A stretch of DNA of 64,000 nucleotides from contig NZ_CP102293.1 of NCBI RefSeq assembly GCF_025152575.1, positions 2,294,001 to 2,358,000 of the forward strand. Reading direction: 5' to 3'. Numbering within the stretch: position 1 is the stretch's first letter; each line of letters opens with the position of its first letter. Positions 37,962 to 52,140 of the stretch are shown one piece after another. The notes below the pieces were generated by a model. It saw only the letters and a program-made list of their open reading frames with translations, did no database searches and had not been told where the DNA came from. The position numbers and the translations under genes were made by a program. The stretch comes from Subdoligranulum variabile. GTDB taxonomy: Bacteria > Bacillota > Clostridia > Oscillospirales > Ruminococcaceae.

Positions 37962-38511
37962 TAAAGTTTCATTTGATGCGCCTGTTTTTTGCCTTTTTTG
38001 TCAGTGTTAATAAGAAGGACAAGTTTTCCTCCTTCATCAGTACATTGACAATCGAATAGACAGCACAACAGGTACATAACCCATGTATGAGCGAATATGA
38101 AACGCCGCGAAGATGGAGCAGTCAGGGAGGTGATGAAAGAACTGCTTCGGAGCGATCTACGATTTCATAAAACGGATTGTGGCAGATTCGGCGCGATGAC
38201 TGCATGGGGGCTTAAAGATACTTCCTCACGGCCCGCCAAAGACTTGGGGGGAACCCTGCGGCACACGATACGAACGATGCTGCGGAGTTATGACAGCCGC
38301 GCCAGCGGAGACCTGTTGTGTTCCCATCGTCAGGGGGCGTGGCAAATGTGACGAGAATTGAGTCATATTAAAATAGGAAGCGACTGCTCTTTTGGGTGGC
38401 CGCTTTCTATTCAAAATCAGATACCATGCGCTGGCAGTTTCGGCTGCCAGCGTATTCATGTGATTTTGAAAGCACGATGATAACCTTGACAGATAGGAGG
38501 GAATATAGTCT
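37962..38511 (+). other. Region between sigma copy 2 and excisionase
   Basis: No convincing gene. An 84-codon frame (38097-38351) has a basic, repeat-poor sequence without a clear ribosome binding site and is left uncalled. A hairpin with 9-base arms CGCTGGCAG/CTGCCAGCG (38429-38452) lies about 60 bases before the excisionase start; with no T tract it may be a regulatory or recombination-related site. Confidence 0.4.
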
Positions 38512-38742
38512 ATGGAAAAGCTCATTACACGAAAAGAAGCTGCTGAAATCTTAGGAATCAGCATAGCAACGCTGGATGCCGCCCGTAACAACGGCTTAAT
38601 CTCTTATGTGCAGTATGTTCAGAATGGCTGTGTGTATTTTACTGCGGCAGGTCTCCAGGAGTATATCGCAAAATGCACGCACAGAGCAAAACCAGTTGAG
38701 AGAAGCGCAACTTACCGTAAACCTCGAAGCGGAAGATCGTGA
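38512..38742 (+). CDS. xis: Excisionase-type helix-turn-helix protein
   Basis: A 76-residue protein beginning EKLITRKEAAEILGISIATLDAARNNGLISYVQ, a MerR/excisionase-type DNA-binding fold, with a basic tail. Directly upstream of the integrase, it fits the directionality factor that favours ICE excision. GATAGGAGGGAA precedes ATG 38512. It is 84 bases before the integrase start. Confidence 0.8.
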   Translation: MEKLITRKEAAEILGISIATLDAARNNGLISYVQYVQNGCVYFTAAGLQEYIAKCTHRAKPVERSATYRKPRSGRS

Positions 38743-38826
38743 GCCGGTCCGTATCCTTGATGGAATCAGAGAGGTCTGATAAAACAAAGGTACAGCGCTG
38801 GAGATTATTCTTAGGAGGTGGAGGAA

Positions 38827-40044
38827 TTGGCAAATAGAAAAATAATACTTCCTCAATATGGCACAGTCATGAAAAGAGGTGTCCTATATTATAGGACCAG
38901 AATCAAAGATGCGAATGGTAAGCTCGTAGCTATCTACGCAAAAACACCTGAAGAACTATATAACAAAGAAACGCTTGCGTTGGAACAGATTGAGAATGCT
39001 ACTTTTCATCGGAAAACGCCCACAGTTGCAGAGTATTGTGAAAAGTGGCTTCTGATGCAGTCGGTTCATGTACGAGCCACTACCTTGACGGATTACACAT
39101 CAAAGGTCAGGCGGCATATTATAGCGGAATTGGGAGATAAACGGATGGGTGAGGTTAGCCTGGATGATATTCAGCTTGCCCTTGTTCCGGTTTCCAAAAA
39201 ATCTGCATCGGTTTATAAATCTGTGGTAATCCTTTACAAATCTATCTTTCGCGCAGCGATGGAAAGCAGGATTATTGACCACAACCCAACGATTTATCTG
39301 ACCACAAAAGGTGGCGGTGTTCCACAAGAGGATCGTCAGGCTTTGACAGATGAACAGGTGGAGCGCCTTTTGGATGCTATCCGAGATTTGCCGCCTTATG
39401 TCTTTGTCATGATTGGTTTATATGCAGGGCTACGCCGGGAAGAAATTCTTGCTCTGCAATGGGATTCAGTATATCTGGATACAGATACTCCATATCTGAC
39501 GGTAAGACGGGCATGGCACACCGAACATAACAGACCGGTGATTTCGGATGAATTGAAAACCAAGGCTGCGGAGAGAAATATCCCCCTTCCTGTTTGCTTG
39601 GCTGAGTGTTTGAAAGCAGCAAAGGAAACTTCGACTTCGGAGTATGTGGTTTCAAACCGGGATGGCGAACCGCTGTCCTACACGCAGTTTAAGCGACTTT
39701 GGCAGTATATTGTTACGAGGACGGTCAAGGAGCGGAGCTATTATCGGTATGAAGATGGAAAAAGAGTAAAGCATACTGTCACACCTGTCTTGGGAGAAAA
39801 GGCTGCTCATAACGGAAAAGTGGTTTACAGTCTGGACTTTGAAGTAACACCCCATCAGCTGCGGCATACTTACATTACCAATCTCATTCATGCATCGGTA
39901 GATCCCAAAACGGTTCAATACCTGGCAGGCCATGAAAGCAGCAAGATTACCATGGACATTTATGCAAAGGTTAAGTACAACAGACCAAATGAGTTGGTCA
40001 GATCAATGAACTGTGCGTTTGCAAGCTGGGATGCAGCACAGTAA
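38827..40044 (+). CDS. int: Tyrosine recombinase / ICE integrase 1
   Basis: A 405-residue Tn916/Tn1549-type integrase. The N-terminal arm-binding domain (YGTVMKRGVLYYRTRIKDANGK) and SAM-like core-binding domain precede a catalytic domain with Arg in GLRREEILALQW, HQLRHTYITN (H-x-x-R), GHESSKITMDIYAK (His and nucleophile Tyr). TTG 38827 is taken as the start since AGGAGG (38813-38818) is eight bases upstream; the GTG at 38818 overlaps that site. A related integrase follows directly. Confidence 0.9.
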   Translation: MANRKIILPQYGTVMKRGVLYYRTRIKDANGKLVAIYAKTPEELYNKETLALEQIENATFHRKTPTVAEYCEKWLLMQSVHVRATTLTDYTSKVRRHIIAELGDKRMGEVSLDDIQLALVPVSKKSASVYKSVVILYKSIFRAAMESRIIDHNPTIYLTTKGGGVPQEDRQALTDEQVERLLDAIRDLPPYVFVMIGLYAGLRREEILALQWDSVYLDTDTPYLTVRRAWHTEHNRPVISDELKTKAAERNIPLPVCLAECLKAAKETSTSEYVVSNRDGEPLSYTQFKRLWQYIVTRTVKERSYYRYEDGKRVKHTVTPVLGEKAAHNGKVVYSLDFEVTPHQLRHTYITNLIHASVDPKTVQYLAGHESSKITMDIYAKVKYNRPNELVRSMNCAFASWDAAQ

Positions 40045-40066
40045 TAACAAATAGGAAATGAAGCAG

Positions 40067-40097
40067 GAGCGAGGCAAGGATGTCTCGCTCTTTGTTT
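40067..40097 (+). terminator. Terminator after integrase 1
   Basis: The arms GAGCGAG/CTCGCTC are followed by TTTGTTTT. Confidence 0.65.
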
Positions 40098-40191
40098 TAC
40101 CTCAGCCGTATCTTTGATTAAATCGAGGCTTTCTGATAAAAAGAGAGTGTAGATACGGAGACTACACATTATCAAGAAAGGACGATCAAAG

Positions 40192-41403
40192 ATGGCAAAA
40201 AAGAAAACACAGATCCCGAAGTACGGGACCATTACATTGAAAGGAATCCAGTATTACAGAACCAGGATTACGGATGCAGATGGCAAAGAGTTGAGTTTGT
40301 ATGCCGCAACTTGTGAAGAATTGTATGAGAAGCAGTTAGAGGCCCGGAAGCAGGTGGAAGAAATTATCTTTCACCGGCAGCACCCGACAGTAGCCGAGTA
40401 TGGAGAGAAGTGGCTGCTGATGCAGTCGGCAAAGGTGTCTGCGTCTACACTCAGAGGTTATACGAGGGATATGACAAACTATATCATAAAACCTCTGGGA
40501 GAGATGTATATGGAAGAAGTGACCGCTGACGATATTCGGCTGGCGCTTGTTCCATTGTCAAAGAAATCGGAAGGCTTATACAATAAGGTCAATATGCTAC
40601 TCAAGTGCATTTTTTATGCGGCAGAGAGAAACCAAATTCTTGAACACAATCCCTGTGTGGGAATATCGGGCAAGGGCGGAAAACCATCAAAAAAGAGAGA
40701 GGCATTGACAGATCAGCAGGTAGCCGTGCTTCTGGATACAGTCAAGGGGCTTCCTCCATATTTGTTTATTATGCTCGGTTTATATTCCGGTCTGCGTCGG
40801 GAAGAAATTCTTGCACTGCAATGGGATTGTGTATTTCTGGACGAGGATACACCTTATCTATCGGTGAGGCGGGCATGGCGTACAGAGCATAACAGACCCG
40901 TGATTTCTACGGTGCTAAAGACTCCGGCGGCAAAAAGGGATATTCCGATACCGAAGTGTTTGGTGGATTGTCTGAGAGAAACGAAAGAAAATTCCATATC
41001 AGATTATGTGATTGCTGACAGTAAAGGGGAGCCGCTGGCTGCTTCGCAGTTTCAAAGAGTGTGGCAGTATGTCGTTGTCCGCTCCACTAAGCCCCGGAAC
41101 TATTATAAGTATGTGAATGGGCAGAGCATCAAATACGCGGTTACCCCAACGCTGGGCATGACCCAGAAAAATCAACCCAAAATCAGATATACGCTGGACT
41201 TTGATGTAACCCCGCATCAGCTACGGCACACTTACATTACCAATCTTCTCTATGCTGGTGTTGATCCAAAGACCGTCCAATACCTTGCCGGACACGAAAA
41301 CAGCAAAACAACTATGGACATCTATGCAAAAGTGAAGTACAATAAACCAGAGGAGCTGTTTGGGGTAGTAAATGGTGCGTTTCATCAGGCTATTGCTGAA
41401 TGA
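40192..41403 (+). CDS. int: Tyrosine recombinase / ICE integrase 2
   Basis: A 403-residue integrase, collinear with integrase 1 along its length and with all catalytic residues (GLRREEILALQW, HQLRHTYITN, GHENSKTTMDIYAK). The start ATG 40192 follows AAAGGACG. It has its own upstream region with the inverted repeat GTGTAG/CTACAC, after a terminator, so it is likely expressed independently. No separate excisionase is linked to it. Two intact integrases suggest a merged or accreted element. Confidence 0.9.
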   Translation: MAKKKTQIPKYGTITLKGIQYYRTRITDADGKELSLYAATCEELYEKQLEARKQVEEIIFHRQHPTVAEYGEKWLLMQSAKVSASTLRGYTRDMTNYIIKPLGEMYMEEVTADDIRLALVPLSKKSEGLYNKVNMLLKCIFYAAERNQILEHNPCVGISGKGGKPSKKREALTDQQVAVLLDTVKGLPPYLFIMLGLYSGLRREEILALQWDCVFLDEDTPYLSVRRAWRTEHNRPVISTVLKTPAAKRDIPIPKCLVDCLRETKENSISDYVIADSKGEPLAASQFQRVWQYVVVRSTKPRNYYKYVNGQSIKYAVTPTLGMTQKNQPKIRYTLDFDVTPHQLRHTYITNLLYAGVDPKTVQYLAGHENSKTTMDIYAKVKYNKPEELFGVVNGAFHQAIAE

Positions 41404-41790
41404 AAAAAGGCCGTTTTTTATGGTCCGCACACCGGATAACTGAGAGGCAGAAAGCCGGAAAAGCCCGGAGTATCAAGGAAAAACAGCTCAAAAACTCGCG
41501 CAGTACGGCTTGAAGGCTGCCCGTCGCGCTCCCCAGTTCAGCAAGCGCTGATTGTCCGCACTACTTGCGAACTTTTCAGTACGCTTCACGACTTTTTTGC
41601 ACGATTGTGTGCAGAAAATCGGATGCGCCTGACGTGGTGGAATGCAGCAAATCGCCTTGGAACCTGCTGAAAAAGCAGCAGGTAAGAAGCGAGTATGCAG
41701 CAGACCATCCCGAAGCAAATTGCCTATCGCAGGAGACGTTTTTCGCAAGGAGAACGTCTCCTGCTTTTTTATTTGCAAAAAAGAAAGACC
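41404..41790 (+). other. ICE right-end / island left-end region
   Basis: No convincing gene; all frames here are short or antisense. It contains the 20-base repeat at 41534 and, just before the island integrase's stop, a hairpin (GGAGACGTT..AACGTCTCC, about 41729-41761) followed by TTTTTTA on the plus strand. Confidence 0.5.
41534..41553. repeat. Candidate attachment site, left copy
   Basis: CAGTTCAGCAAGCGCTGATT, identical to 50541-50560. It contains TCAGC/GCTGA arms. It lies 130 bases after the ICE integrase 2 stop and 240 bases from the island integrase stop. Confidence 0.7.
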
Positions 41791-42852
41791 TTATGGCTTG
41801 CAAATCATGTTGATACCGTCGATAAGGGTCTGGATATCCAGATGAGTGTACACACGTTCGGTCAGGCTCATGGCACCGGAATGACCGGCAATCTTCTTCT
41901 GAATGGTGGGGTTCACACCGGCATCAGCCATCATGGAAATACAGGTATGCCGGGTGTCGTGGGGCTTGTGCTTCATCCCGTATTCTTCCATCAAAGGGTC
42001 CCAGTAGGTGTCGCAGTAATTGAAGTAGTCCAGATGCTTGCCGTCGGTGGTGCAAAGCAGATACTCGCAGGGCGAGCGCTCCATCCATCCTTTGTAAAAG
42101 GGCAGCATCTTGTCTGCAATGGGCACCTTCCGGATACCGTTTTCGGTTTTGCTTTCCACCACATCAAAATACTGTTTTTCCAGATGGACGTTCTCCTTCT
42201 TCAGATCCAGAAACTCCGAAATGCGGCAGGCATTGTAATTGAGCATGAGCAAAATCTGACAATAGGGATTGGCTTTGTGCGCCCACAGGGTTGCCAGCTC
42301 TTCTTTTGTGAAGATATTGCGGTCACGCCGGTTGGGATTCTTGTCCCGGTAACCTGCCAGATCGACAAATTGGGAATAGTCCTTATTGCAGATGTCGTTC
42401 TTCATGGCATAGGCATACATCTGGTTGAACAGACCCTTTAGCTTTTTCAGCGTAGGATAGTTCTTGCCGCAGGTTTCAATGACAAGCTGCAAGTCACACA
42501 GTTTGATCTCACGGAAGGCTTTATCGTACAAAAATCCGCAGACTTTGTACGAAGCCTCATACCCCTTTACATTGGAATGTGAGATAGTGGGATACTTGGA
42601 TTTGGACCAGCGCTCGTACACTTCGGCGAAAGTGACCTTGGCGGTATCCACATCATAAGGGTTCTGATTGTATTCGGCCAGCATTTTCAGACCTTCGGCT
42701 CGGGTTTCAGCATAGCCGATGATGATGAAATCCTGAATCTGTCTGCCTTTTCCTTTATCCAAATGCCAGCCGATGGTTTTGCGTACCATATAGGGTTTTC
42801 TGCGTTTTCCGGACATTTTGACTACGCTGCCGTAGCCATTGGGTAATTTCAT
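41791..42852 (-). CDS. int: Tyrosine recombinase / island integrase
   Basis: A 353-residue phage-type integrase with Arg in NACRISEFLDL, HDTRHTCIS (H-x-x-R) and GHSGAMSLTERVYTHLD (His, Tyr). It differs from both ICE integrases, including in its N-terminal domain. The start at 42852 (MKLPNGYGSVVK) follows AAAGGGAG in reverse; the longer frame reaching 42918 overlaps the regulator's stop and has no ribosome binding site. It reads toward the left 20-base repeat, as expected for an island integrase. Confidence 0.88.
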   Translation of the reverse strand: MKLPNGYGSVVKMSGKRRKPYMVRKTIGWHLDKGKGRQIQDFIIIGYAETRAEGLKMLAEYNQNPYDVDTAKVTFAEVYERWSKSKYPTISHSNVKGYEASYKVCGFLYDKAFREIKLCDLQLVIETCGKNYPTLKKLKGLFNQMYAYAMKNDICNKDYSQFVDLAGYRDKNPNRRDRNIFTKEELATLWAHKANPYCQILLMLNYNACRISEFLDLKKENVHLEKQYFDVVESKTENGIRKVPIADKMLPFYKGWMERSPCEYLLCTTDGKHLDYFNYCDTYWDPLMEEYGMKHKPHDTRHTCISMMADAGVNPTIQKKIAGHSGAMSLTERVYTHLDIQTLIDGINMICKP

Positions 42853-42917
42853 GTTTTTATCAAACTCCCTTTCGCTCAGGCAGATTTTATGATAAAGAGG
42901 AAAACCTCTTATCAGCA

Positions 42918-43520
42918 TTACTTCAGATTTTCCAGCTGCTCCTTGGTCATGGTCTTCAGCTCGGCAAGGCTATATTTGCTGAGATCGGCGGAGTAGAGGG
43001 GCTTGTCTGTCAAGGGCGTTCCGGCATATTGGGCCGTATTCTCCTGCATCCAGCTTTTCATCTGTTTGGGATTGTGCCAGTACTCTTCGGACCATGTGCG
43101 TGCGGAGGAGAAGTTCTCCAGAAGGTAGCAAAGCGTTCCATTCAGACTGGCATCGGGATTGTCAGCACGAAAAATCAGGGAAGCGGTGAAATTCCCATCA
43201 TCGTTTTGTTCGTGTTTGATGTCCACATCAAAATGTAGCTCTTTCTTTTTATTGAGCTCATAGAGTACTGCGATGACGTCGGACAGAGAGTTCAGTTGCA
43301 GTTGGGGTTCTTCAAACCCCAACAGGTAGGAAGGGGTTACCCCCAAAAAGTTTGCAATGCTGCATACGGTGTCAAAGAAAATCCTGCTTTCACCACTTTC
43401 GTAGCTCTGCACGGTGCGCAGGCTTTTCCCCAAAAACTTCGCAAGTTGAGTCTGTGTAATATTTTTTTCTGTGCGGACTTCTTTGATGCGCTGTCCGATT
43501 TGTTCGTTTGTAAGATTCAT
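42918..43520 (-). CDS. XRE-family repressor of the island
   Basis: A 200-residue protein: N-terminal helix-turn-helix ITQTQLAKFLGKSLRTVQSYESGESRIFFDTVCSIANFLGV (about residues 20-60), then an alpha/beta C-terminal domain of unknown type. Its own promoter reads TTGATT-17-TAGTAT on the minus strand. The divergent promoter at 43612-43640 contains a perfect palindrome, its likely operator. It probably controls maintenance and mobilization genes. Confidence 0.85.
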   Translation of the reverse strand: MNLTNEQIGQRIKEVRTEKNITQTQLAKFLGKSLRTVQSYESGESRIFFDTVCSIANFLGVTPSYLLGFEEPQLQLNSLSDVIAVLYELNKKKELHFDVDIKHEQNDDGNFTASLIFRADNPDASLNGTLCYLLENFSSARTWSEEYWHNPKQMKSWMQENTAQYAGTPLTDKPLYSADLSKYSLAELKTMTKEQLENLK

Positions 43521-43539
43521 GGCTTCTCACCTCGTCTTA

Positions 43540-43568
43540 ATACTATCATAGGAATGCGAAGAAATCAA
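43540..43568 (-). promoter_or_regulatory. Promoter of the island repressor
   Basis: On the minus strand, TTGATT (43568-43563), 17 bases, TAGTAT (43545-43540). Confidence 0.6.
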
Positions 43569-43611
43569 GCATCTTAGGCAAATTATATGAAAATTAAACT
43601 CATATACAAGA

Positions 43612-43640
43612 TTGACATACGCAATAAAACTGCGTATAAT
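43612..43640 (+). promoter_or_regulatory. Consensus promoter with embedded operator palindrome
   Basis: TTGACA (43612-43617), 17 bases, TATAAT (43635-43640): perfect consensus. ATACGCA (43617-43623) and TGCGTAT (43631-43637) form an inverted repeat across the spacer, so a bound repressor would block RNA polymerase. Confidence 0.85.
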
Positions 43641-43683
43641 GTAATTGCTGAAAAGCAATCACAAGCAGAAGGAGGTGGAAAGC

Positions 43684-43926
43684 ATGGGAGAAAGTCAGAA
43701 CTACGGAAAGATGCCGCCGTTTACGGGGAGAAATGTGCCGGTAACGGAAATTGCAAGGGCAATGCACAAGGACGCGCAGTATGTACGAGTGGGCCTGCAA
43801 CAGGGAATTTTCAAGTTCGGTTACGCAGTCAAGCTGGAAGGTTCCAACGAGTATAACTACTACTGTCCTGACCGCAAGGTATGGGAGGAAATCGGCTATT
43901 TTAACCCGGAGAGTCATGTTGGGTAA
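43684..43926 (+). CDS. Small putative DNA-binding protein of the island
   Basis: An 80-residue protein. VPVTEIARAMHKDAQYVRVGLQQGIFKFGYAVKL looks like a helix-turn-helix of the excisionase/MerR-like kind, followed by YYCPDRKVWEEIGY. AAGGAGGTGG precedes ATG 43684. As the first gene after the consensus promoter and before repA, it may be an excisionase or a replication co-regulator; which one is not decided by the sequence. Confidence 0.65.
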   Translation: MGESQNYGKMPPFTGRNVPVTEIARAMHKDAQYVRVGLQQGIFKFGYAVKLEGSNEYNYYCPDRKVWEEIGYFNPESHVG

Positions 43927-43984
43927 CAAAAAAGAGCGCTTACCCGTGCAGGGGTAAACGCTCCGATGAAAGACAGTACCAACA

Positions 43985-44046
43985 GCGGCTGCTGTGTGTA
44001 ACTATCAGGCACCACTGATATTTTACCACAGCAGCCGCCATTTTTG
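43985..44046 (+). terminator. Hairpins between small gene and repA
   Basis: Perfect 12-base arms GCGGCTGCTGTG (43985-43996) and CACAGCAGCCGC (44028-44039) are followed by TTTTT. A smaller hairpin (GAGCG..TTACCC / GGGGTAA..CGCTC) lies at 43934-43963. They probably attenuate read-through into repA. Confidence 0.6.
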
Positions 44047-44066
44047 AAGAAAAAATGGGAGGCTTT

Positions 44067-45032
44067 ATGGAAAATGAGAGTACTGTAAAATTGATTTCCC
44101 TGGATACAATTCCCGTACAAGAAGTGGAGTGGCTGGTATATCCATTCATTCCCTGCGGAAAGATCACCATCATTCAGGGCGATCCCGGCGAAGGGAAAAC
44201 GACCTTTATTCTGCAGCTGATCGCGCGTCTCACTACCGGCAGACCTGCATGGGACGGAATGTCTCCTATGACACCCGGCAACGTGATCTACCAGACGGCG
44301 GAGGATGGTCTGTCGGATACCATCAAGCCAAGACTGCTCGCCGCCGGTGCGGCCTGTGACAAGGTGCTGATGATCGACGACAGCGATAGGGCGCTGACAC
44401 TGGAGGATGACCGGCTGGAACAGGCCATTGTGCAGACCCATGCACGGCTGGTTGTGCTTGACCCGATCCAAGGCTACATCGGGGCCGGGGTGGATATGCA
44501 CCGCGCCAATGAGATCAGACCGCTGATGCACAGGATCGGTGTCTTGGCTGAAAAGCATCACTGTGCCATTGTCCTGATCGGGCACATGAACAAGAACAGC
44601 GGGGAAAAATCCAGTTACCGGGGACTCGGTTCCATCGACTTTCAGGCTGCTGCCAGAAGTGTTCTGGTGGTGGGCCGTATCAAGGATGATCCGACGCTGC
44701 GGGTTGTCTGCCCCACCAAAAGTTCCCTGGCTCCGGAAGGAAAGGCTATCGCCTTTCGCCTCGACCCGGAGCAGGGCTTTCAATGGGCAGGTGAATATGA
44801 CATCAGCGCAGAAGATTTGCTTTCAGGCAACAGCCGAGGGCACAAGCTGCGGGAAGCACAGAATTTCCTGCAGGAAGTGCTGGCGGAAGGGGCTCTGCCG
44901 CAAACTGAAATAGAGGCAGCTGCGGAGCAAAAAGGCATCAAGCCCAAAACGCTGCGCAATGCCCGGTACGAATTGGGTGTCACTTCCCACAAGGTGGGAA
45001 AACGATGGTTGTGGGAATTGCCACAAGAATAA
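44067..45032 (+). CDS. repA: RepA-like AAA/RecA-fold ATPase
   Basis: A 321-residue hexameric-helicase-type ATPase: Walker A GDPGEGKTT (about 37-45), Walker B RLVVLDPIQGYIG, and a C-terminal winged-helix-like region (ALPQTEIEAAAEQKGIKPKTLRNARYELGV). This matches the RSF1010 RepA-like ATPases found next to MobV relaxases in mobilizable elements, where they act in replication. ATG 44067 was chosen with TGGGAGG just upstream; an in-frame ATG at 44055 precedes that site. Confidence 0.8.
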   Translation: MENESTVKLISLDTIPVQEVEWLVYPFIPCGKITIIQGDPGEGKTTFILQLIARLTTGRPAWDGMSPMTPGNVIYQTAEDGLSDTIKPRLLAAGAACDKVLMIDDSDRALTLEDDRLEQAIVQTHARLVVLDPIQGYIGAGVDMHRANEIRPLMHRIGVLAEKHHCAIVLIGHMNKNSGEKSSYRGLGSIDFQAAARSVLVVGRIKDDPTLRVVCPTKSSLAPEGKAIAFRLDPEQGFQWAGEYDISAEDLLSGNSRGHKLREAQNFLQEVLAEGALPQTEIEAAAEQKGIKPKTLRNARYELGVTSHKVGKRWLWELPQE

Positions 45033-45040
45033 TTTAAGGA

Positions 45041-45079
45041 GGCAAGATGACCCTATCTATAAGAACAGGGCATCTTGCC
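45041..45079 (+). terminator. Terminator-like hairpin after repA
   Basis: The arms GGCAAGATG/CATCTTGCC are extended by CCCT/AGGG, directly after the repA stop. Confidence 0.55.
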
Positions 45080-45168
45080 TTCTTGAAAACAAGAGATTGC
45101 TTTTTCAGCTAGGTAGCCCCGCAGGGCGCAAAGGCGCTTTTGATGCGAAGTGTCAAAAGTGCTTTTGC

Positions 45169-45189
45169 GTTACTCTTGGCAAGAGTAAC
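45169..45189. other. Inverted repeat before the relaxase, candidate oriT
   Basis: GTTACTCTTG and CAAGAGTAAC are perfect 10-base arms with one central base. It is preceded by repeated CTTTTG elements (45138-45167) and followed by CCGGC/GCCGG. It lies 37 bases before the MobV start; oriT sites of this family are usually just upstream of mob and contain such repeats. The nick site is not identified. Confidence 0.45.
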
Positions 45190-45225
45190 AGAACCCGCCG
45201 GCTTGCGCCGGAGAAAGGAGAAATT

Positions 45226-46401
45226 TTGAAAAGGACAATCAGCGCCATGGTTGGGAAAGGCTCCCTCAATCATAACAGCCGTGAGTTTTACGCCCCCAAT
45301 GTAGACCCGTCCCGCAGCCATCTGAACGTGGAATTCTGCAAGGAAGATATCCGAACGGTGTATCATGAACTGTTTGACGCAGCACAGCAGCGTTACAATG
45401 CAAGGCAGACACGCAGTGACCGCCGTATAGCGGACTATTACACAAAAATCAGTTCTTCCAAGCAGGAAAAGCCCTTCCATGAGATTGTGCTGCAAATCGG
45501 AAACAAGGATGATACCGGTATCGGCTCGGAAACGGCAGACCTCGCCCGGCAATGTCTGGAAATGTATGTCCACGGCTTCCAAGCGCGAAACCACACACTG
45601 CGTATGTTCTCCGCTCATTTGCACATGGATGAAGCGACGCCCCATGTCCATATTGATTTTGTGCCCTATATCACCGGCAGCAAACGGGGAATGGATACCC
45701 GTGTATCCCTCAAACAGGCGCTGGCGCAGATGGGCTTTGTGGGCGGAACACGCAGCGCCACAGAGTGGAATCTTTGGGTGCAGCGGGAAAAGCAGGTGCT
45801 GGCGGATATCATGCGGGAGCATGGCATCGAATGGGAGCAGCTCGGCACCCACGAAGAACACCTATCGGTATTGGAGTACAAAAAGCAGGAACGCAGCAAG
45901 GAGGTCAAGGAACTGGATTCCGCCATTGCGCAGAAACGCACCGAAGTGGAAAAGATAGAGGATACCTTGCAGGCGGTCCAGAAACAAGTGGTGGACCTTG
46001 ATAAGATCGAGGCTGTCAGTGCGAAAAAGGCGCTTTTGAGTGATCGGGTAACGCTGCCGCGCAGTGACTTTGAGAGCCTGTTCCATGCGGCCAAACAGTA
46101 TGTGGTGTACCGCCGTCAGGATGAACAGCTGCAGAAACTGCTGGATGCCGCCCAGGAGAAAATCCGGCAGCTGGAAAGTGTGCTGAACAGTCTGAAAGAG
46201 AAAGTGAATGATCTGACCAACAGACTGGCAGAGCAGACCTCTCATCATCGTCAGTCACTCATGTTGGAAAGAGCACGGCGGATGCAGATGGAAAAAGAAA
46301 ACACACGCCTCAAACGGGAAAAGGCAGGCATGGTGGCGCTTCTGCGTAAACATGGAATTGTATGGAAGGAAAATCTGTTCACCGAACGAAACGAGAGATA
46401 A
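45226..46401 (+). CDS. mobV: MobV-type relaxase (Pre/Mob family)
   Basis: A 391-residue mobilization protein with the MobV motif HLHMDEATPHVHIDFVPY (H-x-D-E-x-x-P-H-x-H), N-terminal NHNSREFYAPNVD and a long coiled-coil C terminus (~250-375). It would nick the island's oriT and allow transfer by a helper conjugation system. TTG 45226 has AAAGGAG six bases upstream; the frame continues upstream to 44959 inside repA but without plausible protein sequence. Confidence 0.88.
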   Translation: MKRTISAMVGKGSLNHNSREFYAPNVDPSRSHLNVEFCKEDIRTVYHELFDAAQQRYNARQTRSDRRIADYYTKISSSKQEKPFHEIVLQIGNKDDTGIGSETADLARQCLEMYVHGFQARNHTLRMFSAHLHMDEATPHVHIDFVPYITGSKRGMDTRVSLKQALAQMGFVGGTRSATEWNLWVQREKQVLADIMREHGIEWEQLGTHEEHLSVLEYKKQERSKEVKELDSAIAQKRTEVEKIEDTLQAVQKQVVDLDKIEAVSAKKALLSDRVTLPRSDFESLFHAAKQYVVYRRQDEQLQKLLDAAQEKIRQLESVLNSLKEKVNDLTNRLAEQTSHHRQSLMLERARRMQMEKENTRLKREKAGMVALLRKHGIVWKENLFTERNER

Positions 46402-46431
46402 AAATGTAGATCTTGTATAATCATGAAAAGA

Positions 46432-46465
46432 AAAAGCCGACCGAGAGTTATCCTGGTCGGCTTTT
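46432..46465 (+). terminator. Terminator after mobV
   Basis: AAAAGCCGACC and GGTCGGCTTTT flank a 12-base loop; T-rich sequence follows. It separates mobilization genes from the HEPN cargo, which has its own -10 box TATAAT at 46573-46578. Confidence 0.8.
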
Positions 46466-46639
46466 GTTATTATAAATTCTAAATGACTTGAGGTGTTTGA
46501 ATAATTCGAAAATATAAAACTTGCTTTGTATGTAAAGTAGAATTCTATATAGAGTTGATCTTTTTTATTTGATATAATGATATTAAATATTGGAAATTGG
46601 AATTGAATGGGCGAACTATTTAAGGAGAAGTAATTTGAT

Positions 46640-48058
46640 ATGTTAAAAATAGGCAACAATTTTTGCGGATATCTAAATGTAGGAAATGATAAATTCGTCT
46701 TCAATATAACTAAATCGTTGGTTACATTACTTCCAGCGGAAAGCGACCCAAAGAAAATTGAAGCAATGCTTTCTCGGCTACGATCTCACGATACTGATCA
46801 CCCTGAGTTCTTTTTTGGAAATGATGGGAACAGTACAATAGCCTTTGAACGTAACACGAACTTTTCTATGGACGTGCTACAGTTGAGCCCAATTGTTAGG
46901 TTTAGAACACCAATTATAATTAAGGCGGCTGGTAATACTCACTATTTCAAAAGCCAATTAACGGCTGAATGGGATTGCTTTCATGCAATAACCTTTTTTG
47001 GGGGGAACATAAATGCAATTTTTCCTCCAGCTATTGCACGAAAACCTAGGTATTCTCAAGGACAGGTTGATGGTGAAGAAGCGATAGCTATTGAACTTCA
47101 GCCAAGTAGTTATTATTCACACTCTACCGAAATTGAAATTGATGGAACAAAATCAACGCTTACGGTTTCCCTTTATCAAACGGAGGGAACTAATGAAGAA
47201 CACATGAATTCTTATAATGTCGGAGAATTGAGCGCCTATGTACGACTTTCTTTCGACGAGGCACAAAAGTTTGAAAAGATTGAGAGATACTATCAGATTA
47301 TTTATTCTTTAATAGCAATTTTAACTGCACAGAATAATGTTGTATTTAATGTTTATCTAAGCCAAAAAGAGAAAGATGGATTATTTCACAGAACTGGTGT
47401 TTGTAAAATATTTGATAGCTTTCAAAATTATTCTGTTCGCAAGAGCCATAAAGTAATACAGATATTAAGTGTATTCGATCATATCCCTAAGATAGTTGAA
47501 AGCATTGCAGTAGGTAAGGCTCAGTCTATCCTTGATGTACTTCCTGATGATAACGCGAACATAAATCGAATTTCAATAACCAATGTTCAAGATTTATGTA
47601 CTGCGTTAGAAATAATATACAATGAGAACAAACATAAAAGGCCTAAAGACACATTGATTGAAGAACTGAAAGCCTCTATTAATGATACTATAAGCGCATT
47701 TGTCCAGAGCAAATTAAAACAAGGTGAGCTAGAAATCAGCATACAAGATGATACAAATATAGCAAGTGCATTTAAATATTTGGATTTTACGTTAACTGAT
47801 AAGATTCTCACACTTTATAGTGAGTGTCAATCTATAATAGATGGCTTTATAGCTCATAAATCTTTACCTCAAATTAATGAAAGCAGAGTACGATCTTTTG
47901 TAAGGCTAAGAAATAATAAAACACATAACGGTGAAATCGAATGGGGCGATAATGCAGCAACATATGTGATTTTGTTAGCGCTTCTTTACGCTAGTTTTTT
48001 GAAAAATGTTGGCGTAAATGATGATATTATTCAGCAACTACTCGTAAATGTTTTTTAA
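46640..48058 (+). CDS. ApeA-like HEPN-domain protein, first of a pair
   Basis: A 472-residue protein. An all-beta-looking N-terminal domain (GYLNVGNDKFVFNITKSLVTLLP) is followed by a mixed middle region and a helical C-terminal domain with RNNKTH at residues 424-429, the RX4H catalytic motif of HEPN ribonucleases. The layout resembles ApeA-type anti-phage proteins, in which the N-terminal part senses infection and HEPN cuts RNA. TAAGGAGAAG precedes ATG 46640. The gene is much more AT-rich than mobV or the chromosome. A paralogue with the same layout follows. Confidence 0.75.
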   Translation: MLKIGNNFCGYLNVGNDKFVFNITKSLVTLLPAESDPKKIEAMLSRLRSHDTDHPEFFFGNDGNSTIAFERNTNFSMDVLQLSPIVRFRTPIIIKAAGNTHYFKSQLTAEWDCFHAITFFGGNINAIFPPAIARKPRYSQGQVDGEEAIAIELQPSSYYSHSTEIEIDGTKSTLTVSLYQTEGTNEEHMNSYNVGELSAYVRLSFDEAQKFEKIERYYQIIYSLIAILTAQNNVVFNVYLSQKEKDGLFHRTGVCKIFDSFQNYSVRKSHKVIQILSVFDHIPKIVESIAVGKAQSILDVLPDDNANINRISITNVQDLCTALEIIYNENKHKRPKDTLIEELKASINDTISAFVQSKLKQGELEISIQDDTNIASAFKYLDFTLTDKILTLYSECQSIIDGFIAHKSLPQINESRVRSFVRLRNNKTHNGEIEWGDNAATYVILLALLYASFLKNVGVNDDIIQQLLVNVF

Positions 48059-48245
48059 AATAGATCGGTCATCTACGGAATATTGTTTGTTCTAGTTTTG
48101 ACCAAGATGTCTTCATTGTCGCCATAATTAAAAACGATTTTGCCCCATGGATAGAAGACAATTATTAATAAGAATATGTCGATGTAGGAGCGTCTAAGTA
48201 ATATCTACAAAAAATCTCACAGAGCAATGATAAGAAGGTGGTACT

Positions 48246-49688
48246 ATGAGCAGTAAGGATGCGGATTTTGATAACAAAATTTATACAGGAATACTTGAGT
48301 ATGCAGGTGATGATTACCAATTTGTTTTTTCAAGCGGAAAATTAAAACTGATTCCTGCGTCCAAAGAAAAAAGAGCGGAAATGTGGAAATTTGGCAAGAA
48401 AGAAATTGCCAAAGGAGTTTATACATCGGATGAGCCGCCTCGTATGGAAGAGGATATTTTAGTTGGAAGATGTCATGAAAGTAATGAGCAAATCGTTTTT
48501 CTGCCCCAAAAAGGAGCATATATTTCTAAGACCAATACTGTGTTGATTATTAAGCTGACGGCTTACATTGTATGTAAACGTGAAAGAAATTCCATAGACC
48601 GAATTAGCTTTAATGGTCCAGAAATCAATTGTATTCATCCTACAAATCAAGCCATCGAATGTACGTTCGATATAGAATCATTTATAAATAATGGTACCTT
48701 TGCAGTGACGACGAAAGATTTTGAGTGCACCACAACTAAAAGGCAGCCATTTGTTGTGGACGGGAAAAAAGTTTCTGTTTGTTTTGGCATTTCCCGCACG
48801 ATGGGTGCGAAGATCTGGGAACCGCCCATGACGCTTTCGTCAAATATGATGTTCGAATTTGATGCAACTGATGATTATAGATTTATTCTTAGACTATGGT
48901 ATATAGCAAAGCAGTTTATTCAATTCCTTTGTTATAGGAAAAACGTGGAGTTTAATAAAGTGGAATTAGCTGCACCATATCAAGATGGAAAACATGAGAA
49001 TTTTGCAGAGCTATATGTTCTGGATGGAGGAGAAAAGGCGGACATTCAAGGGCTAAAGGATGGACAATACATTAAACAGGTGTATATATCAGGCCATGAA
49101 GGACAGATATTGGCAGACATAGCAGACGATAAATTATATTTACGTCATTTGCCTGACTCTCTTGAAAGTAGTAAACATATTGATGCAGCGCGTTTTGTAA
49201 TGATTACCGCAGCGTTCGAGTGGGAATTTGATAGGTTATTCCCTGATGGAATTGAAAAAAGTCAACAACGTATAGACGCTGAACACGAGGTTTCTCAAAA
49301 ACTCAACGAACTAATTGACATGAGCAGTGGAAAGACTAAGAAAATTTACAAATCCCTGTTGAGGTGTATAGAGTTCAGCCCAAGTTTGGCCAATAAAATC
49401 GAAAAAATAGGTTCTGATATGGGAGCGTTGCTAGAGCCTTTTGGACAACCGCTATATAGTTTGAATAAAGAGCAATTAAATTATGCTGATATGGGCAAAA
49501 GGATTGGAGATCAGAGAAATCATTTCGCGCATGGCGACTTGGACGAGGATTTTATAGGTCTATCTTTGTTGGATTTGATTTTCTTACAACGGATTATTTA
49601 TGCTATGCAGTTGAAATCGTCTGGCATTGAAAATCAGGAAATTCAAAGAGCGATTAATGATCTATTCCGATGTGGCCTTGTATTCTGA
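48246..49688 (+). CDS. ApeA-like HEPN-domain protein, second of a pair
   Basis: A 480-residue protein with the same order as its neighbour: N-terminal GILEYAGDDYQFVFSSGKLKLIP, middle region ending in an FEFDATDDYRFILRLWYIAKQFIQFL helix and YLVLD-like strand, then a helical C-terminal domain with RNHFAHG (R424...H429, RX4H). Overall identity to the first protein is low, but motif order and the position of the HEPN motif are the same. AGAAGGTGG precedes ATG 48246. It is probably a defence gene acting with or beside the upstream paralogue; the 187-base gap holds no clear terminator, so co-transcription is possible. Confidence 0.75.
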   Translation: MSSKDADFDNKIYTGILEYAGDDYQFVFSSGKLKLIPASKEKRAEMWKFGKKEIAKGVYTSDEPPRMEEDILVGRCHESNEQIVFLPQKGAYISKTNTVLIIKLTAYIVCKRERNSIDRISFNGPEINCIHPTNQAIECTFDIESFINNGTFAVTTKDFECTTTKRQPFVVDGKKVSVCFGISRTMGAKIWEPPMTLSSNMMFEFDATDDYRFILRLWYIAKQFIQFLCYRKNVEFNKVELAAPYQDGKHENFAELYVLDGGEKADIQGLKDGQYIKQVYISGHEGQILADIADDKLYLRHLPDSLESSKHIDAARFVMITAAFEWEFDRLFPDGIEKSQQRIDAEHEVSQKLNELIDMSSGKTKKIYKSLLRCIEFSPSLANKIEKIGSDMGALLEPFGQPLYSLNKEQLNYADMGKRIGDQRNHFAHGDLDEDFIGLSLLDLIFLQRIIYAMQLKSSGIENQEIQRAINDLFRCGLVF

Positions 49689-49689
49689 A

Positions 49690-50429
49690 TTTACTTCTTT
49701 GGAAAAGGTAGTACCAATGGCTGTGTCATTGCGCTCTTTATTCTACTGTACTTCGTTAGACTGACCCCCGGATATGCAGACCTGGAATATACAGAAGCCT
49801 TCGCGGAGCAGTTATATTAGAGAGCCCTGTATCTTCTCTATTTACCGTTCCTGTTTGTTGTGGCATATCTGCCGTTTTTGGGGGAGGAATATGACTGGAG
49901 ATATTGCCTGCAGTCATTATTGCAAAAGAAGTTCGGATATTGGATCGGCACGCTGATCAATGGTTCTATGCGGGGTCTTTGGCATATTTCCATGCTTATC
50001 CTTAGCCATGCAAGCAATGACGTTTTCTATGCGGGATTAAGGCAAATTGCATTCTGCATCTGTTTGGGCTTCTTTTTGACTTTCTCAAAAGAAGTGACAA
50101 ATAATATCTGGTTGTTGGCTGTCTTACATTATCTGAACAACCAGTTTGCTGTTTTTATATCCCTGAATCCATCTTCTGTAGGGAAAATCAATGCAACAGG
50201 ATTTTTAGATGCACTGTCAATTTTTATCTATAATGCTATTTACATTCTTCCGTTCCTTGTCTACCGGTTGTATCTATGGAAAAAAGCGAAAAAAGCGCCA
50301 GCTAATTACAGCACCCGCATGCTGGGGGAAGCTAATAAGCACCTTGCCCCTTCGTACTCCCTCCACAGCCCTGAGCTGCCGTGGATAAGAAGCAGAAAAG
50401 AAGCAAGGTGCCTTGCAGATTCTGGCTGA
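49690..50429 (+). pseudogene. CPBP-family intramembrane protease, broken
   Basis: The frame reads GCVIALFILLYFVRLTPGYADLEY...AEQLY, then an in-frame TAG (49818-49820), then LYLLYLPFLFVVAYLPFLGEEYDWRYCLQ...GTLINGSMRGLWHISM and several further helices. EEYDWRYCLQ and the later GLWH are CPBP (type II CAAX prenyl endopeptidase/bacteriocin-immunity) motifs. The N-terminal helices and start are missing: the frame begins right after the HEPN gene's stop. The last ~45 residues look like frameshifted sequence. So it is 5'-truncated and interrupted. Confidence 0.75.
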
Positions 50430-50462
50430 AGTTGTAAAAACTTTTGCCTGGATGATTGTAAA

Positions 50463-50560
50463 ATGCACGGTTCTGTGTTGTTATTGCTTCCGGAAAACGC
50501 TCAAACCGAAGTAGCCAAAACACAGTCGCCGCACCGGAAACAGTTCAGCAAGCGCTGATT
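50463..50560 (+). other. Repeated intergenic unit A (promoter-like, possible small RNA)
   Basis: It resembles 52249-52342: both begin CACGRTTYTGTGTT..TTATT and end CCGCACCG-AAA..TTCAGCA-(4)-CTGAT, and both are followed by a strong terminator hairpin upstream of a chromosomal gene. The unit here includes the right 20-base repeat. Possible readings are a small RNA, a leader RNA or a repeated intergenic element. Confidence 0.5.
50541..50560. repeat. Candidate attachment site, right copy
   Basis: CAGTTCAGCAAGCGCTGATT, identical to 41534-41553. It coincides with the 3' hairpin of intergenic unit A. Confidence 0.7.
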
Positions 50561-50579
50561 CCTTTTTCCCATGCATCCA

Positions 50580-50610
50580 AGCCCGGAACCGGAAGGTTCC
50601 GGGCTTTTTT
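50580..50610 (+). terminator. Strong terminator after intergenic unit A
   Basis: AGCCCGGAACC, loop GGAA, GGTTCCGGGCT, then TTTTTT. Confidence 0.85.
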
Positions 50611-50664
50611 ATGGGAGGGGGCGCCCTCCTGCCAATGGACACAAAAATGGATTTTGCCGAAATA

Positions 50665-50693
50665 TGGACAAACTATGTCCAAGATGGTACAAT
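50665..50693 (+). promoter_or_regulatory. Promoter and palindromic operator of the NCS2 permease
   Basis: TGGACA (50665-50670), 17 bases, TACAAT (50688-50693). The -35 box is one arm of a perfect palindrome TGGACA-AACTA-TGTCCA (50665-50681), a likely repressor site. No purine riboswitch core was recognised in the remaining ~75-base leader. Confidence 0.65.
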
Positions 50694-50769
50694 GGTTTTC
50701 GTGTTTTTGGCCCACGCTTCTGCCCGAGGAGCGAGGAGAAAAACCATAAATTCAAACGGGAGGAATTTC

Positions 50770-52140
50770 ATGTTAGAAAAAGTTTTCAAACTGCGGGAAA
50801 ATCATACCAACGTCAAAACAGAGATCATGGCAGGTATCACCACCTTCATGACCATGGCGTATATCCTTGCGGTCAACCCCAGCGTCCTGTCCGCTGCCGG
50901 TATGGATCCCAACGCGATCCTCATTGCCACTTCGCTGTCTGCTTTCATTGGCACGGCGCTGATGGCACTGCTGGCCAACTATCCCTTTGCGCTGGCCCCC
51001 GGCATGGGCCTGAATGCCTACTTCGCCTACACCGTCGTCCTGAAAATGGGCTACACCTGGCAGATGGCCCTGATGGCCGTCTTTGCGGAAGGCATCATCT
51101 TCATCATCCTGTCCCTGACCAACGTCCGGGAGGCGCTCTTCAACGCCATCCCCACCACCCTCAAATCCGCTGTCAGCGTGGGCATCGGCCTGTTTATCGC
51201 TTTTGTGGGCCTGCAGAACGCCAAGCTCATCGTCAACAGTGACTCCACTCTGCTGACCTACCAGAGCTTTAAGGGCGAAACCTTCCACAGCGTGGGTGTG
51301 GGCGCCATCCTGGCCCTGATCGGTGTGCTGATCATCGCCATCATGCTGGTCAAGCAGGTCAAGGGGGCCATCCTCTACGGCATCGTGATCACCTGGGTGC
51401 TGGGCATCCTCTGCGAACTGTGCGGTGTGTACATCCCCGACGCCGAGGCCGGTATGTACTCCGTCATTCCCACTTCCTTCGTCAGCTTTGACTTCTCCGC
51501 CCTGGGCCAGACCTTCGGCCAGGTGTTCAAGGTGGACTTCGCCGGACTGAACGTGCTGGATTTCTTCGCCGTGATGTTCGCCTTCCTCTTTGTGGACCTG
51601 TTCGACACCCTGGGCACCCTCATCGGCGTTGCCTCCAAGGCGGATATGCTGGATGAGAATGGCCGTCTGCCCCGCATCAAGGGCGCGCTGCTGGCCGATG
51701 CCATCGCCACCAGCGCCGGTGCCGTGCTGGGCACTTCCACCACCACCACCTACGTGGAGAGCGCTTCCGGCGTCACCGAGGGCGGCCGCACCGGCCTGAC
51801 GGCCATGACCACCGGTGTCCTCTTCCTGCTGGCGGTGATCTTCAGCCCCCTGTTCCTGACCATCCCTTCCTTTGCGACGGCTCCCGCCCTGATCGTGGTG
51901 GGCTTCTATATGCTGGGCGCGGTGGCAAAGATCGACTTTGACGATCCTTCCGATGCCATCCCGGCCTTCCTGACCATCGTGGCCATGCCCCTGGCGTACA
52001 GCATCTCGGAGGGCATCGCCATCGGCGTCATCTCCTGGACGCTGCTGAATCTCATCACCGGCAAGGCCAAGGAGAAGAAGATCAGCCCCCTGATGTACGT
52101 GCTGACGGTGCTGTTCATCCTCAAGTATGTCCTGCTGTAA
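50770..52140 (+). CDS. NCS2-family purine permease
   Basis: A 456-residue transporter with about 12-14 helices. MAGITTFMTMAYILAVNPSVLSAAGMD, NYPFALAPGMGLNAYF, FLFVDLFDTLGTLIGVASKADMLDENG and GTSTTTTYVESASGVTEGGRTGLTA are characteristic of AzgA/PbuG-type adenine, guanine or hypoxanthine proton symporters. ATG 50770 follows GGGAGGAA; the frame upstream to 50611 has no ribosome binding site. It is the first clearly chromosomal gene after the island and has the high GC of its downstream neighbours. Confidence 0.9.
   Translation: MLEKVFKLRENHTNVKTEIMAGITTFMTMAYILAVNPSVLSAAGMDPNAILIATSLSAFIGTALMALLANYPFALAPGMGLNAYFAYTVVLKMGYTWQMALMAVFAEGIIFIILSLTNVREALFNAIPTTLKSAVSVGIGLFIAFVGLQNAKLIVNSDSTLLTYQSFKGETFHSVGVGAILALIGVLIIAIMLVKQVKGAILYGIVITWVLGILCELCGVYIPDAEAGMYSVIPTSFVSFDFSALGQTFGQVFKVDFAGLNVLDFFAVMFAFLFVDLFDTLGTLIGVASKADMLDENGRLPRIKGALLADAIATSAGAVLGTSTTTTYVESASGVTEGGRTGLTAMTTGVLFLLAVIFSPLFLTIPSFATAPALIVVGFYMLGAVAKIDFDDPSDAIPAFLTIVAMPLAYSISEGIAIGVISWTLLNLITGKAKEKKISPLMYVLTVLFILKYVLL

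Follow-up and report, generated by a model that had tools for sequence, protein, structure and literature searches.

Two divergent ApeA-like HEPN genes in the cargo slot of an integrative mobilizable element at rpsI

Two adjacent genes of Subdoligranulum variabile, here called A and B, encode divergent ApeA-like HEPN proteins and occupy the cargo slot of a small mobile element. Our favored explanation, to which we assign a probability of roughly 0.7, is that A and B are independent single-protein ApeA-like anti-phage genes that share one cargo slot by chance. The genes lie within a 64,000-nt stretch of the chromosome (contig NZ_CP102293.1, positions 2,294,001 to 2,358,000), referred to below as “the window”, and the original prediction had proposed them as a candidate two-protein defence system. 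Here, we describe the two proteins, the element that carries them, the occurrence of their relatives, and the explanations that compete for the pair.

Two subfamilies of ApeA-like proteins

Gene A (46640..48058, + strand) and gene B (48246..49688, + strand) are intact ORFs encoding proteins of 472 and 480 aa, exactly as first read. Both are AT-rich, with a GC content of 34.2% for A and 37.6% for B versus 50.1% for the backbone from the integrase to MobV and 60.7% for the right flank. Given their shared orientation and the gap of 187 bp between them, co-transcription is possible; a promoter scan was uninformative for a shared transcript, with 18 promoters found as against 14.9 in shuffled sequence (sd 4.0). 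BLASTP aligns the two proteins with 21% identity over 321 columns (E 1e-4), and profile-profile comparison aligns 422–434 columns with a probability of 91.2–96.0% (E 1e-6 to 4.5e-9; reversed controls, E 0.18–0.63). Judged by these alignments, A and B are homologous end to end, at ~20% identity. A recent tandem duplication was considered and is ruled out by this low identity and by the membership of A and B in separate subfamilies.

The most apt name for A and B is divergent ApeA-like HEPN proteins, from two old subfamilies, a naming that draws on Pfam matches, a conserved motif, and the homology of A to B, and that agrees with the original description of two diverged proteins of this kind. Relatives at E 0.001 or better number 194 for A and 703 for B. 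Against Pfam ApeA_NTD1 (PF18862; cut-off 25.5 bits), A scores 22.7–24.3 bits; the domain is matched in 9/31 A-family members at E 0.1 or better and appears in precomputed annotation for 2 of the best 120 of 194 relatives, while B has no match to it. Against HEPN_Apea (PF18739; cut-off 24.4 bits), A scores 14.2 bits, and 7/31 members of its family match. B is borderline, at 23.8 bits as a protein and 26.7 bits in six-frame translation, with matches in 29/32 family members and precomputed annotation in 10 of the best 120 of 703 relatives. The HEPN_Apea domain of ApeA can be assigned to B, at the cut-off; an Rx4-6H active-site motif such as that of ApeA is found in both families.

For comparison with canonical ApeA, we used one clade of 116 proteins (L044 and its relatives) in which both Pfam domains score over their cut-offs. 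Profile-profile comparison with this clade was not significant for A (E 0.064–0.084, with reversed controls at 0.18–0.63) or for B (E 0.055–0.2), the B alignment being collinear and its motifs paired. PADLOC gave no match for B and only a meaningless HerA match for A (E 0.014), and a sequence search of solved structures gave 0 matches for either protein at E 10. In the AlphaFold2 models (mean pLDDT 82.5 for A, 87.8 for B), both proteins have a beta-rich N-terminus, a helical C-terminus, and the motif at a helix end, upholding the domain order first proposed for them. The C-terminal part is assigned a HEPN fold from its sequence profiles and motif; at E 0.001, a Foldseek search of the PDB matched nothing to either model, and a VIA-align fold search listed no HEPN chain, its lists being filled by the N-terminal part and so excluding nothing. 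In one database protein, P0145, the start is GmrSD_N (DUF262) and the remainder corresponds to the final two-thirds of a B relative; it may have arisen by a deletion that fused two genes, by a true exchange of domains, or as a chimera of the assembly.

The motif that had drawn attention to the pair, Rx4H at residues 424–429 in both proteins, is present as described: RNNKTH in A and RNHFAH in B. On composition, chance alone would give ~0.4 Rx4H motifs in each protein, and B contains another at residue 342. Therefore, the motif alone is little proof, and the evidence lies in its conservation. Among rows with letters at both positions, R and H are found in 119/119 in the A family (best 120 of 194 relatives, one row gapped) and in 118/118 in the B family (best 120 of 703 relatives, two rows gapped), and the profile alignment pairs the A motif with that of B. 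The identical residue number would seem to be partly luck, since the A–B alignment contains indels. Because each family retains its own full motif, neither A nor B resembles a degenerate regulator.

The element at rpsI and its cargo slot

By its gene content and ends, the DNA that carries A and B is recognizable as an integrative mobilizable element at the 3′ end of rpsI, i.e., it has a tyrosine integrase, a relaxase, and att repeats that correspond to the rpsI 3′ end. The element is 9.0 kb long and is bounded by a perfect 20-nt direct repeat. The left att core (41534..41553, + strand) is a copy of the rpsI 3′ end and translates to QFSKR-stop, with which ribosomal protein S9 ends; the right core lies at 50541..50560 (+ strand). 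With up to three mismatches allowed, the core has two matches in the window versus 0.03 expected. The backbone begins with the tyrosine integrase (41791..42918, − strand; Pfam Phage_integrase, 3e-17), an Xre-type HTH regulator (42918..43520, − strand; Pfam HTH_3, 1.6e-13), and a small ORF of 93 aa (43645..43926, + strand) with no credible Pfam or NCBIfam match; in the related backbones L082 and L083, these three are 99.5%, 99%, and 98–100% identical, respectively. There follow an AAA_25 ATPase (44055..45032, + strand; Pfam, 2e-30) and a MobV relaxase (44959..46401, + strand; Pfam Mob_Pre, 1.7e-17; NCBIfam MobV, 44.6 bits, below the cut-off of 100). The MobV start codon is uncertain, as the ORF overlaps the preceding gene and the ORFs of relatives begin later. 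The last gene on the right is a CPBP/Rce1-like protease ORF (49860..50429, + strand; Pfam Rce1-like, 4.2e-12), whose last 130 residues are 100% identical in L084. Related elements retain this ORF at their own right ends, and it is probably an N-terminally cut remnant. An Rfam scan of positions 38000–51000 gave no match.

Intact rpsI lies ~20 kb to the left of the window (chromosome coordinates 2273466–2273828), and its end differs from the att core at three bases. The rpsI 3′ end and the distal att core (chromosome 2344541) are ~71 kb apart, a span probably taken up by a tandem array in which this element is the distal member. The core, with up to two mismatches, is found in 23/35 genomes of the genus (reversed control, 0/35). 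The left att copy is immediately preceded by two tandem paralogous tyrosine integrases (38818–40044 and 40192–41403), apparently the end of a neighboring element in the same array; elsewhere in the genus, 60–80% relatives of these integrases also adjoin this core.

Ten related backbones could be read past the slot; L083, which ends at a contig edge, and G659 were left out. The DNA match to related backbones ends at 46124–46473 on the left (for L080 also earlier, at 45086) and resumes at 50035–50363 on the right. The stretch between, 46474..50034, has no such match and is the slot that holds A and B. Because backbone similarity stops before A and restarts after B, the two genes are the replaced part. 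Together, the att repeats, the integrase, MobV, and the swapped slot bear out the view that A and B are cargo of a mobilizable island. Elsewhere, the slot holds an AlwI-type restriction-modification (R-M) pair with AIPR (L080), a helicase with a NERD/UvrD helicase (L085), a YhcG nuclease with an N6 methylase and an Mrr-type nuclease (L124), or a YhcG nuclease among other genes (L125). In L084 and L123, it holds a TetR regulator, a radical SAM protein, an S-adenosylmethionine synthetase, and a RelA/SpoT-type protein, and in L082, L120, L121, and L122 there is no cargo and an integrase comes next. Thus, the slot often, and not always, carries defence-type genes.

Two further features of these backbones were observed. 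The cargo shared by L084 and L123 is unusual, and its radical SAM protein has a weak PADLOC viperin match (5e-9). The backbones of L082, L120, L121, and L122 are near-identical to the present element up to MobV and then continue with a different integrase and chromosomal-looking genes; in L082, the integrase after MobV has Tn916-type domains. It is as if the relaxase module were common to element types with different attachment sites.

Occurrence of A and B relatives and their neighbors

A B-family gene was sought in the flanks of 14 A-family loci from named genomes, where the A relatives are 38–52% identical and some flanks are short because contigs end; none was found (0/14). A profile search for B in the same 14 genomes also gave 0/14, the B alignment having found, as a positive control, B in its own genome and in one other. 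Within the host's family, 3 of 297 genomes have A and 8 have B, and within the host's class (E 1e-10), 4 of 391 genomes have A and 2 have B; these counts include the genome of the window itself, the only one with both in either sample. Moreover, B relatives are present in host-family genomes that have no A, and HEPN_Apea is matched in 9 of 394 genomes of the host's order, with one match each. The closest relatives (64–74% identical for A, 61–88% for B) are known as proteins only, and the pairing counts cover more distant ones.

For the relatives read, an obligate pairing of the A and B families is excluded. Recurrent adjacency, as expected of a two-protein system, was found neither among the loci nor among the genomes, and no adjacent pairs on islands turned up among them; the proposal of a joint system, put forward from the window by itself, is therefore not sustained. 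Instead, as far as the loci are readable, relatives are single, stand-alone genes in the manner of ApeA, while in the window two homologues adjoin. The open-access literature that we searched yielded no account of tandem ApeA genes. Neither protein had a match in plasmid and phage collections; among viral contigs, A had no match and B had one.

Up to three genes on each side were surveyed at 13 A-type loci and at 8 loci of the B type, 105 proteins in all, with L048 and L050 being near both families. R-M or other defence genes are found near relatives at ≥5 of the 13 A-type loci and ≥2 of the 8 B-type loci. Pfam families among the neighbors include DNA methylases, ResIII, Type ISP, MmeI, MvaI/BcnI, DpnI, and AbiJ_NTD3, as well as resolvases, integrases, and many housekeeping families (among the best 25 of 69 and 25 of 41 families). 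Ten neighbors picked by hand, a choice that was not blind and had no control set, each have a PADLOC model match with an E value of 1e-6 or better; they lie at L014, L015, L018, L020, L024, L036, and L048 and are of type IIG, type III, and type II R-M, DpnI-like, PDC-M49A, and OLD-like ATPase types. This agrees with the available text of a study that places ApeA genes within R-M operons in epsilonproteobacteria (PMC3710099), and the setting of A and B is ordinary for such genes.

Proposed role and comparison with known systems

Most likely, A and B each act as an independent infection-triggered RNase, as suggested by analogy with known HEPN RNases and ApeA. According to the portions available of one source, HEPN domains act as homodimers, and ApeA is listed among HEPN proteins (PMC13405049). 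Each protein would likewise form a homodimer, with R424 and H429 at the center of an RNase site made by the C-terminal HEPN domains. An infection-derived signal may be sensed by the beta-rich N-terminal part, which would free an RNase held inactive until then; the freed enzyme would cut cellular RNA, perhaps tRNA, and growth arrest would precede phage spread. By the title of a 2026 preprint cited in PMC13405049, ApeA is activated by deoxydinucleotides. Set beside a weak PilZ-like barrel signal, this is a lead rather than a result, and an unlikely one; if true, it would make the A–B pair a ready test of trigger choice by ApeA-like proteins.

Other explanations take the pair, or the element, as the unit of function. 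It is highly improbable that A and B make up one system, whether a heterodimeric HEPN nuclease or an effector with its regulator: the genes are adjacent, on the same strand, equal in size, and homologous over their full length, the reported action of HEPN RNases as dimers (PMC13405049) would allow it, and an intact motif in both proteins fits a composite active site, but B is missing from all 14 A loci and all 14 A genomes, joint occurrence is confined to the host's own genome in both larger sets, and each family keeps a full motif of its own. This pairing evidence comes from A relatives that are 38–52% identical. Division of labor would need no physical contact, only two effectors of the same type with different trigger ranges and hence wider joint protection. 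Consistent with this idea, the C-terminal motif is common to both proteins and the N-terminal halves have diverged: the mean frequency of the commonest residue in B is 0.60 over residues 1–110 versus 0.86 over residues 411–450, the values for A being near-equal (0.69 and 0.73). However, recurrence of the pair was not found, and one example cannot tell selection from chance accretion; we consider such a division of labor rather improbable.

We give similarly little credence to a role of A, B, or both chiefly in stabilizing the element, through addiction or in the manner of a toxin–antitoxin (TA) pair, rather than in anti-phage defence. A and B are probably both RNases and are carried by a mobile element, and according to the text available of PMC5704250, addiction may be a function of TA and type II R-M systems on elements of this sort; against this, no antitoxin-like small gene was recognized beside A or B, and their relatives stand alone, often near R-M genes. 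We retain the explanation that A and B are independent genes brought together by chance. The analysis adds two ApeA-like subfamilies, large (194 and 703 proteins) and diverged, for which PADLOC has no credible match, and places them in the exchangeable cargo of a small mobilizable element; an adjacency in a single genome, tempting as a two-component system, is not upheld by related loci.

The element has a counterpart in IMESag-rpsI of Streptococcus agalactiae, which is also ~9 kb, with a tyrosine integrase, a MobV-family relaxase, and the rpsI 3′ end as its site (PMC5090054, in part), and which is listed with a Rep_Trans initiator and TA genes in the accessible part of PMC5704250. Unlike IMESag-rpsI, the present element is found in a different host group, has different cargo, and has an AAA_25 ATPase.

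As for the proteins, the portions available of PMC3710099 describe ApeA as a HEPN family with a conserved active site, found in R-M operons, and ApeA-NTD1 as a mostly-beta domain of ~300 aa. Like A and B, ApeA has ~470–480 aa, a mostly-beta N-terminal half, C-terminal HEPN-type helices (putatively so in A and B), and an RNxxxH-like motif (in the canonical clade, RNYYIH in P0241, with R and H in 116/116). Like the relatives of A and B, ApeA genes stand alone and have R-M neighbors. Unlike ApeA, A and B score at or below the Pfam cut-offs, have no significant profile match to the canonical clade and no credible PADLOC model, and lie side by side as two homologues in their own genome.

PrrC works with an R-M partner. 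RnlA, PrrC, and the HEPN protein of the type IX retron all depend on company of some kind, be it an antitoxin, an R-M system, or a retron, and no such partner was seen for A or B. These proteins resemble A and B in having an active site of Rx4-6H type or an equivalent (PMC3710099 and PMC13405049, in part), and their infection-triggered cleavage of RNA resembles the role that we propose for A and B.
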